Assembly: GCF_000701445.1 (NCBI RefSeq)
Contig: NZ_KL370782.1
Coordinates: forward strand, 68,983-132,982
DNA: 64,000 bases
Origin: Brevundimonas bacteroides DSM 4726
GTDB lineage: Bacteria > Pseudomonadota > Alphaproteobacteria > Caulobacterales > Caulobacteraceae
Reading direction: 5' to 3'
Part shown: one piece after another, positions 18,347-19,854 of the stretch
How the letters are laid out: every line of letters starts with the position of its first letter
Position numbering within the stretch: the stretch's first letter is position 1
The notes under the pieces: generated by a model
What the model was told of the DNA's origin: nothing
Seen by the model: only the letters and a program-made list of their open reading frames with translations
Database searches by the model: none
Position numbers and translations under genes: made by a program

Positions 18347-18913
18347 TCAGCCCGCGATCAGGACCCACAGCCCCGTCGCGGCGAACGCGGCTGCTGCCGC
18401 CATGCGGATGTATCTGAGCGGCAGCCTGCGGGCCGTCGCCTCGCCCAGCCAAACCGCCGGGCCATTGACCAGCATCATGCCGATGGTCGACCCGGCGATC
18501 ACGAGAGGCAGGCTATCGAAGCGGATGGCCAGTCCAGCCGTAGCGATCTGGGTCTTGTCCCCCATCTCGACCAGGAAGAAGGCCGCCGTGGTCGTCCAGA
18601 ACACGCCCCAGGCGCTCTTCTCTGCCGGCTCTGCCTGAGCGACCTCCAGGGTGTCAGGGATCAGGGCCCAGACTGCGAAGCCCAGGAAAGCAATCCCGAC
18701 GACCCATCGCATCCACGGGCCCTCCAGGTACTGCGCCGCCAGCACGCCGGCCACAGCGGCGAAGGCGTGGTTCACCAGGGTGGCGGCCAGAATTCCCAGA
18801 ACGATCGGTGTCGGGCGTCGCCAGGTCGCCGCGAGCGCGATCGCCAGCAGCATGGTCTTGTCCCCTATCTCCGCCAAGGAGACGAGGCCGATGGAAATTA
18901 GCGCGGCGTCCAA
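18347..18913 (-). CDS. TMEM165/GDT1 (UPF0016) family cation exporter, probably manganese
   Basis: A 188-residue six-helix membrane protein with the duplicated family motif: LAEIGDKTMLLA near the N-terminus and LVEMGDKTQIATA in the middle. Family members exchange Mn2+ or Ca2+ for protons. The reading frame begins with TTG (18911-18913), since the family motif is too close to the next ATG (residue 20, inside the first motif). No clear Shine-Dalgarno is seen. It converges with the export lipoprotein gene with three bases between. Confidence 0.88.
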   Translation of the reverse strand: MDAALISIGLVSLAEIGDKTMLLAIALAATWRRPTPIVLGILAATLVNHAFAAVAGVLAAQYLEGPWMRWVVGIAFLGFAVWALIPDTLEVAQAEPAEKSAWGVFWTTTAAFFLVEMGDKTQIATAGLAIRFDSLPLVIAGSTIGMMLVNGPAVWLGEATARRLPLRYIRMAAAAAFAATGLWVLIAG

Positions 18914-19342
18914 AACGCACTCGATCGCGGGGCCTCGGCGGACGGACCTGTGGCGTTCGCAGCCGGACCCCGCGTGGAATCAACCCTGCGAAGCCAACGG
19001 TCTTGTCAGGTTTGAGTGTCCCCCAACACTCGACGCGCGGCGTCGCTGCTTGAGGGACGAGGCTTCCGAAAGGAAGGGCCTCTGATCCGAACCGTCCGCG
19101 CCATCCCCTCCGGGCGAGAGGAAGTCTGTTGACGCGGGCCCCGCTGAACGCGCGGGTGACTACTCCCCGATGACGCGAAGTCGTGTAGTCGCTGCCACAC
19201 CGCAGGGCAAGCGCAGCACCGGAGGTAGACAGTCCAAAATGGTTAATATAACCGTGTTGCTGCGGGTCGCAGACCTCCTCAAGGGTTCGCCTGACAGGGG
19301 AAAAGTGAAGTCTCGCAAGGACTTGAGAGGGGAGCTGACTGA
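18914..19342. other. 429-base non-coding gap with a hairpin repeat and promoter-like DNA
   Basis: Lies between the divergently transcribed GDT1-type gene and the heptad-repeat gene. It holds one copy of a short hairpin repeat (19029-19054), the hairpin CTTCC-gaaa-GGAAG just after it, and the small palindrome GGTTA-ata-TAACC at 19241-19253 in the only AT-rich part. I see no convincing gene, and no well-spaced sigma-70 promoter that I would assign. Confidence 0.6.
19029..19054 (+). repeat. short hairpin repeat, copy A (CTCG-stem-GCG-stem-CGCTGCTTGAG)
   Basis: Reads CTCG, then ACGC-GCG-GCGT (a four-base stem with a GCG loop), then CGCTGCTTGAG. The same scaffold occurs at 24766-24793, 24826-24850 and, on the other strand, 34932-34959. 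This copy lacks two bases (CT) after the stem. All copies are outside genes. Confidence 0.7.
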
Positions 19343-19801
19343 ATGGATCCGATCACTTCGATCGTGGCCTCCATGCTGATTTCGGGCGCTGCGGCGACGG
19401 ACGGTCATGGTTGTGCCGAGGCGCCGCACTACGACGGCGTGCCCTGCGCCTGTACCCGCGTCGTCGATTTCTACGGCCCGTGGACGGGCGGTGGTGGCTA
19501 CACGCCTCCCGGTGGCTGGCCGCCGCCGATCAACGTTCCTGCCGGTCCGGCCATTACCGTCGCCTCGCCGGGTTACCGGGTGATCGGCCGCCCGGTTCAG
19601 GTCGCCGGCCCGGTCGTCAACATCCAGGGCCCGCCGGTCTATGTGGACGCCCCGCCGATCCGCATCGCCCCGGCCCAGATCTATGTGCAGCGTCCGGAGG
19701 TCCATGTGCGGCCGTCGGAAATCCTGGTCGAGCCTCCGCAGGTCCACTTCTCGGACTGCACCGACGGCACGGTCTGCACGCCCGTGGACGGCGGCCACTA
19801 A
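19343..19801 (+). CDS. protein with ten tandem seven-residue beta-strand-like repeats, function unknown
   Basis: A 152-residue protein; ATG with a GAGGGG site about ten bases upstream. Residues 1-18 are mildly hydrophobic and may be a weak export signal. Next comes a Cys-rich part (GHGCAE, GVPCACT), then a Gly/Pro stretch. Residues 71-140 are ten unbroken heptads of the form [V/I/Y]-x-[V/I/F]-x-x-P-x, for example VNIQGPP, VYVDAPP, IYVQRPE, ILVEPPQ, with a less exact unit (INVPAGP) before them. The end has a Cys pair (DCTDGTVC). Alternating hydrophobic residues with a proline turn every seven suggest a stacked beta structure. I recognise no named family. It is monocistronic, with a strong terminator after it. 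Confidence 0.8.
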   Translation: MDPITSIVASMLISGAAATDGHGCAEAPHYDGVPCACTRVVDFYGPWTGGGGYTPPGGWPPPINVPAGPAITVASPGYRVIGRPVQVAGPVVNIQGPPVYVDAPPIRIAPAQIYVQRPEVHVRPSEILVEPPQVHFSDCTDGTVCTPVDGGH

Positions 19802-19825
19802 GCCGATCCCCATTAAAACGCTCAA

Positions 19826-19854
19826 GGGGTCCGGACAGCGTCCGGGCCCCTTTT
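19826..19854 (+). terminator. Rho-independent terminator
   Basis: An 11-base-pair stem (GGGGTCCGGAC / GTCCGGGCCCC, one G-U pair) with loop AGC, followed by TTTT. It ends the transcript of the heptad-repeat gene 24 bases after its stop codon and separates it from the exonuclease-lpt operon. Confidence 0.9.

Follow-up and report, generated by a model that had tools for sequence, protein, structure and literature searches.

What structure does a run of ten seven-residue units form in a small protein of Brevundimonas bacteroides DSM 4726, and with which partner does this protein work? The gene in question (c0, the heptad gene) is found in the window, i.e., the whole stretch of 64,000 nucleotides that was analysed, between a leftward gene at 18347-18913 on one side and a rightward RNase D-like gene on the other (Table 1). 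The leftward gene (- strand) is presumably of the GDT1/UPF0016 type, and we take the rightward side to begin with the RNase D-like gene, after which come genes of the lpt type and one resembling rpoN. Our preferred reading, held tentatively at a probability of roughly 0.4, is that the heptad protein and a second small protein (c1) would be an obligate pair forming a CtrA-timed two-protein module of the cell envelope, as far as can be told from sequence.

Table 1. Features of the heptad gene and its surroundings, in window coordinates.
Feature	Position	Strand	Basis
Manganese (yybP-ykoY) riboswitch, leading the presumed GDT1/UPF0016-type gene	19008-19180	-	49.6 bits (gathering score 45)
Upstream element GACAG-N4-AAATGGTTAATATAA with CtrA-type half-site ATGGTTAA (19239-19246), probable promoter	19228-19251	+	13-region alignment
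Shine-Dalgarno-like GGGGAG before the ATG	19329-19334	+	sequence
Heptad-array gene (c0), 152 aa	19343-19801	+	ORF translation; dN/dS 0.13-0.32
Hydrophobic N-terminus MDPITSIVASMLISGAAA, probable export signal, basic n-region absent	19343-19396	+	protein sequence
CxC motif (C35, C37)	19445-19453	+	21/21 core sequences
Ten-heptad array, residues 71-140	19553-19762	+	pattern count, core alignment
C-x5-C motif (C139, C145)	19757-19777	+	C-x4-6-C at the same place in 20/21 core sequences
Intrinsic-terminator-like hairpin, 13 pairs, G-T allowed	19824-19852	+	stem scan: 1 found, shuffle mean 0.6

The array consists of the units ITVASPG, YRVIGRP, VQVAGPV, VNIQGPP and VYVDAPP followed by IRIAPAQ, IYVQRPE, VHVRPSE, ILVEPPQ and VHFSDCT. 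The initial annotation had described these ten heptads as unbroken, with alternating hydrophobic residues and a proline at nearly every turn, and both the ORF translation and the pattern count agree: all ten units have V, I, Y or F at both position 1 and position 3, and nine of them carry a proline at position 5, 6 or 7. In 100,000 shuffles of the window protein minus its first 18 residues no run exceeds 5 units, compared to the 10 observed, for a pattern that was defined only after being seen. A super-period, as would be expected of a solenoid, is not significant for two heptads (permutation p 0.09), and there is no sign of one of three units. At the DNA level, the 21-base units share on average only 45% of their bases (maximum 67%), which rules out a recent DNA duplication, and comparison of the gene with seven relatives (dN 0.07-0.24, dS 0.37-0.74, ratio 0.13-0.32) indicates a constrained gene under purifying selection; the earlier proposal that selection acts on the protein is thus supported. 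The cysteines said to flank the array and the ribosome-binding site are likewise present (Table 1). Regarding the strong terminator that had been claimed, a terminator-like stem of 13 pairs exists, but the stem scan alone does not make it significant given the shuffle mean. The heptad protein is probably exported, judging from its N-terminus, though in this subfamily the N-terminus has no basic n-region; relatives of the other classes start with ordinary-looking Sec signals.

A paralogue of the window protein is encoded on another contig of the same genome, with 89% identity over residues 1-150 and a longer C-terminal tail, and a scan of named genomes yielded 11 loci in records titled Brevundimonas, Caulobacteraceae or Alphaproteobacteria (best segment 76-94% identical). 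Our sample of the family contains relatives in 75 of 299 genomes and 3 of 22 genera, namely g1 (the window's genus), g16 and g32, with a patchy distribution inside each. Some kind of match to the core profile is found in 85/131 genomes of the window's genus, and 36/131 by our own tally of the match table have the core protein (E <= 1e-15), the remainder being weaker and mostly longer open frames. The core class, comprising the window type and class 2 (whose proteins begin with "VKHI"), has ten units free of gaps in 21/21 sequences (the window protein and 20 relatives) from three genera of the Caulobacteraceae. Several residues are invariant at specific units of this 21-sequence alignment, for example PP before unit 5, APP ending unit 5, QI joining units 6 and 7, and PS in unit 8. 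The hydrophobic pattern is broken at unit 1 in four core rows (L008, L010, L070 and L075), at unit 2 in three (A at position 1 in L051, L053 and L056), and at unit 10 in L070.

Longer Brevundimonas relatives (class 3; 12 translated) have 253-405 residues with glycine-rich N-terminal parts, and their longest unbroken run is 5-14 units under a looser rule that also accepts T (n = 12); some of these arrays slip by one residue. As read from the sequences, all classes keep the seven-residue register, with a constant unit count in the core and a variable one in class 3. The expectation that unit count would vary within a kept register is therefore borne out, the nuance being the constant count among the direct relatives. 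Long frames devoid of a heptad array (L003 with E 0.007, L004 with E 0.02, L020, L022 and L026) were set aside. All 13 class 3 proteins inspected (L012-L019, L021, L023-L025 and L030) end in GERG, and the class 2 proteins L008-L011 likewise end in DGERG, possibly a C-terminal signal. Close to the class 3 genes, the end of a gene that we take to be SDHAF4-like is found on the same strand in 12 of 13 loci, and in L018 another frame intervenes. Four class 3 proteins (L021, L016, L017 and L023) show, by eye, super-repeats of about 41 residues made of five heptads and one six-residue unit, suggesting recent expansion.

The partner protein was found by its place in the genome. The c1 cluster recurs in 19 of 26 heptad loci of 12-16 kb each, in some of which a rough gene caller overlooked or truncated the heptad gene. 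It mostly lies tail-to-tail with that gene, and the other neighbours of the pair vary from genus to genus. These proteins of 150-250 residues begin with a hydrophobic stretch, after which come a segment bracketed by cysteines (SC...WVC), a proline-rich linker that varies, and a C-terminal domain; all six cysteines, four of them in this last domain, are present in 16/16. From its start, c1 is probably exported as well. It has no significant match in Pfam or other family libraries, and its AlphaFold model, made from two sequences, has a pLDDT of 54.4 overall, with 61-75 for a hairpin, low confidence for the linker and 80-94 for helices over residues 121-170. A Foldseek search of this model against the PDB gave no match at E below 3.3, and the weak fold matches, none significant, include TPR-type chains (best E 3.3). 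A heptad-like strand within c1 that had been seen by eye was dismissed as weak (9/16 loosely, 3/16 strictly).

Across the 299 genomes of the family sample, 44 have the heptad core (E <= 1e-15), 43 have c1 (E <= 1e-5), and 42 have both, a co-occurrence with a Fisher p of about 1e-47 that is uncorrected for phylogeny and treats genomes that are not independent. The core occurs without c1 in G327 and G330 only, as weaker matches in longer frames, and c1 without the core in G094 only (weak, E 3e-6); weak relatives may be missed given that at most 12 or 17 first-look candidates were scored per genome. Seven further genomes with only weak long-frame heptad matches have no c1 (G026, G036, G095, G135, G157, G181 and G185); in G026 and G036 the matches were directly seen to be of class 3. 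Forty of the 42 pairs lie within 750 bp as measured between the ends of the profile matches, and 39 of the 42 genomes have a convergent heptad copy beside c1, with G240 having a divergent one only. One c1 is flanked by heptad genes on both sides in three genomes (G140, G225 and G257), and three others, including the window's own (G000, G189 and G299), have two heptad genes and one c1.

The window's genome is itself one of the two exceptions to adjacency. Here, c1 is kept but unlinked on another contig, flanked as in relatives by genes that we presume to be PAP2-phosphatase-like and ribonucleotide-reductase-like, and the heptad gene still lies by the GDT1-type gene. The heptad gene, c1 and both sets of flanking genes are all together in locus L043 (4563-9207), and comparison of this stretch with the window gene and L100 makes a breakpoint between the convergent genes in the window's lineage probable. 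In G189 the two genes are also on separate contigs with c1 kept, and both separations may be one single event.

Five loci of g32 (L076-L080, 5/5) hold near the pair a third cysteine-containing, probably exported protein (c5, DDCPPNP-PGKCYEKV), either next to it or one or two called frames off. The copy at L077:5924-6784 (+) has VRPAR/VPAxY repeats. That of L080 matches a peptidoglycan-binding domain above cut-off (E 7.7e-6), which points to the cell wall, and HxsA under cut-off.

Searches beyond the family were nearly empty. Outside the family, a class sample with 384 other genomes gave no heptad relative at E <= 1e-3 (at least four Caulobacteraceae being among the matches listed, with at most 13 first-look candidates scored per genome), and a class sample with 189 others gave no c1 at E <= 1e-4. 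All six genomes with matches in an order sample of 120 belong to the window's own family; a separate scan gave one match outside it (G047), which is weak and contains stops. Viral carriage was considered and dropped, as five stretches of viral contigs fitted the pattern and none was confirmed, and so was carriage by plasmids or phages, with zero matches in either. The open-licence literature searched held no work on a Brevundimonas heptapeptide repeat or a heptapeptide beta-strand solenoid, none relevant by title on PXPV, and nothing relevant on Caulobacter heptapeptide repeats among the matches listed.

The timing part of the proposal comes from the DNA ahead of the gene. An alignment of 13 upstream regions, both paralogues included, shows GACAG...GGTTAATATAAC kept about 100 bases ahead of the start; the region 5' of this element has diverged between the paralogues, and the leader 3' of it is kept. 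Both the 8-mer of the half-site (shuffle mean 0.06) and the long pattern derived from the alignment (0/100 shuffles) occur once in the window. TTAACC or GGTTAA is found within 150 bp upstream of 45 of 50 distinct heptad genes compared to 16 of 167 controls, and the 8-mer upstream of 24/50 compared to 6/167, an enrichment that is descriptive since the genes share ancestry and their starts were only roughly assigned. The 50 are core plus class 2 genes (60 loci before identical upstreams were pooled; neither class 3 nor the window gene, itself a carrier of the hexamer, is counted), and the controls are intergenic regions ahead of other genes of the 26 heptad loci, with starts from a rough gene caller. 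The five upstreams that count as lacking the hexamer include L061, which had a misplaced start. In some subfamilies the hexamer lies at -28 to -59 in opposite orientation, and this other place and orientation argue for function rather than mere inheritance. Upstreams of c1 hardly have it (2/19, with 0/19 for the 8-mer), so that the heptad gene and c1 need not be co-regulated.

The full motif TTAA-N7-TTAA is the CtrA site and occurs in a Brevundimonas phage, according to one study (PMC9437464). Class 2 upstreams have a near-full CtrA site, TTAAGGTTACCATAAC, and among 12 class 3 genes three have the full TTAA-N7-TTAA, five a half-site and four neither; the canonical full site is absent upstream of the window's heptad gene. 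We take the window's AATATAAC to resemble a Caulobacter -10 element, and this likeness together with the conserved half-site suggests that CtrA may time the heptad gene, most likely by repressing it. Another factor, or the promoter itself, could also explain the conserved GGTTAA.

Joined together, these parts would work as follows. The ten heptads would fold into a single ordered structure of fixed size, probably of short beta strands with proline at the turns, clamped by the cysteine pairs at both ends. Partial structure prediction suggests that c1 would consist of a beta hairpin bracketed by cysteines and, across a long flexible linker, a helical domain; from where their cysteines lie, both proteins would be disulphide-bonded. 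They would pair up in the envelope of some Caulobacteraceae, either in the periplasm or on the surface, with the heptad protein as a rigid scaffold or ligand surface and c1 docking on it and linking it to something else. With a single half-site beside the -10 region, the heptad gene would be repressed at high CtrA and its protein then made in the stalked or early predivisional phase. An envelope module of two proteins would fit the fixed array, the conserved cysteines, the near-obligate partner and the putative cell-cycle element, and for it we infer export, disulphides, physical contact, CtrA as the factor, the timing and the envelope role. Its role is more likely to be structural than enzymatic.

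Each part of this proposal has to be weighed against competing explanations. Regarding the array, the heptads might be an extended, largely unfolded proline-rich spacer that only keeps the two cysteine motifs apart, comparable to PXPV repeats or to the PPVYK proteins of plant walls. AlphaFold2, run on the window protein and 10 relatives, indeed gives a pLDDT of 29.9, nine of ten heptads have a proline, and one of two long Brevundimonas relatives weakly matches the PXPV repeat. However, this low pLDDT comes from a shallow alignment of only 11 similar sequences and speaks neither for nor against the short-turn stacked beta structure that the initial annotation had suggested, every unit of the window protein is hydrophobic at positions 1 and 3, and spacers usually drift in length and letters, which the core array, gap-free in 21/21 with its unit-specific invariants, does not; a spacer is therefore rather unlikely in our view, if the most serious of the competitors. 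Regarding c1, a different division of labour would make it the assembly factor or periplasmic chaperone of a heptad protein that then polymerises or inserts on the surface. One c1 accompanying two heptad genes (G000, G189 and G299) or standing between two (G140, G225 and G257) would suit such a role, as would the predicted helical domain (pLDDT 80-94 over residues 121-170) and the weak TPR-type matches; since none of these fold matches is significant (best E 3.3) and no family match is either, we consider it unlikely.

Two further explanations compete with the module as a whole. Neighbours could simply have been inherited and lost jointly through shared ancestry, with no functional link, given that 40/42 pairs are adjacent, that all pairs belong to one family and that G000 and G189 may owe their separated genes to a single event. 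Yet a convergent pair has no promoter in common, the genes around it change from genus to genus, both genes are kept where they are separated, and each of Brevundimonas, g16 and g32 has the pair in a patchy manner, all of which leaves shared ancestry alone an unlikely account. A toxin/immunity or two-peptide bacteriocin pair is very improbable: the proteins are small, probably exported, cysteine-containing and patchily distributed, and contact-dependent bacteriocins are known in Caulobacter according to one paper (PMC5380434), but an export-like hydrophobic segment stands at the start of both, the mostly convergent genes are not co-transcribed, and one c1 stands against two heptad genes in G000, G189 and G299. 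We thus favour the paired envelope module. A bolder extension of it, which strikes us as quite improbable, is an undescribed fold in which ten seven-residue strand-turn units, repeated with no slack, would be clasped by disulphides linking the two ends, the cysteine-bracketed c1 hairpin would dock by adding a strand, and the product would be a surface or periplasmic rod made once per cycle under CtrA timing.

If the module is real, the dimorphic Caulobacteraceae possess, so far unrecognised, an envelope module timed by the cell cycle and made of two small exported proteins, nameless in the family libraries used. The same bacteria have another small envelope protein, HfaA, the holdfast anchor of Caulobacterales. 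HfaA is found in 121/131 Brevundimonas genomes compared to 36/131 for the core heptad protein at E <= 1e-15, and G140, G225, G257 and G749 carry the heptad protein but give no HfaA match; this distribution rules out HfaA or the holdfast as a necessary partner.

The claim that no named fold has such a unit is partly upheld, as the window protein has no significant match in Pfam, NCBIfam or PDB, but two short matches under cut-off in relatives indicate that the heptad pattern is not wholly unlike known ones. The PXPV repeat (PF12778), which the window protein does not match, reaches 17.7 bits (E 0.0035; curated cut-off 23.1 bits) in one of the two long Brevundimonas relatives and is likewise a short proline/valine tandem repeat, from which the heptad protein differs by its seven-residue period with hydrophobic positions 1 and 3. 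The beta helical trimerization domain PF21930 aligns over 23 residues in 4/10 core relatives (best E 0.0096, 16.3 bits; cut-off 27 bits) and appears at E <= 1 in 5/21, the window protein having no match; being short, under cut-off and absent there, it serves as a lead only. Short-repeat beta solenoids (the pentapeptide repeat, the hexapeptide left-handed beta helix and the RTX nonapeptide) combine short units, alternating hydrophobic residues and turn residues, and by analogy the heptad protein may resemble them in all three, though it has no significant match to a family and its period is 7. If true, a seven-residue beta unit would widen the set of such short-repeat folds.
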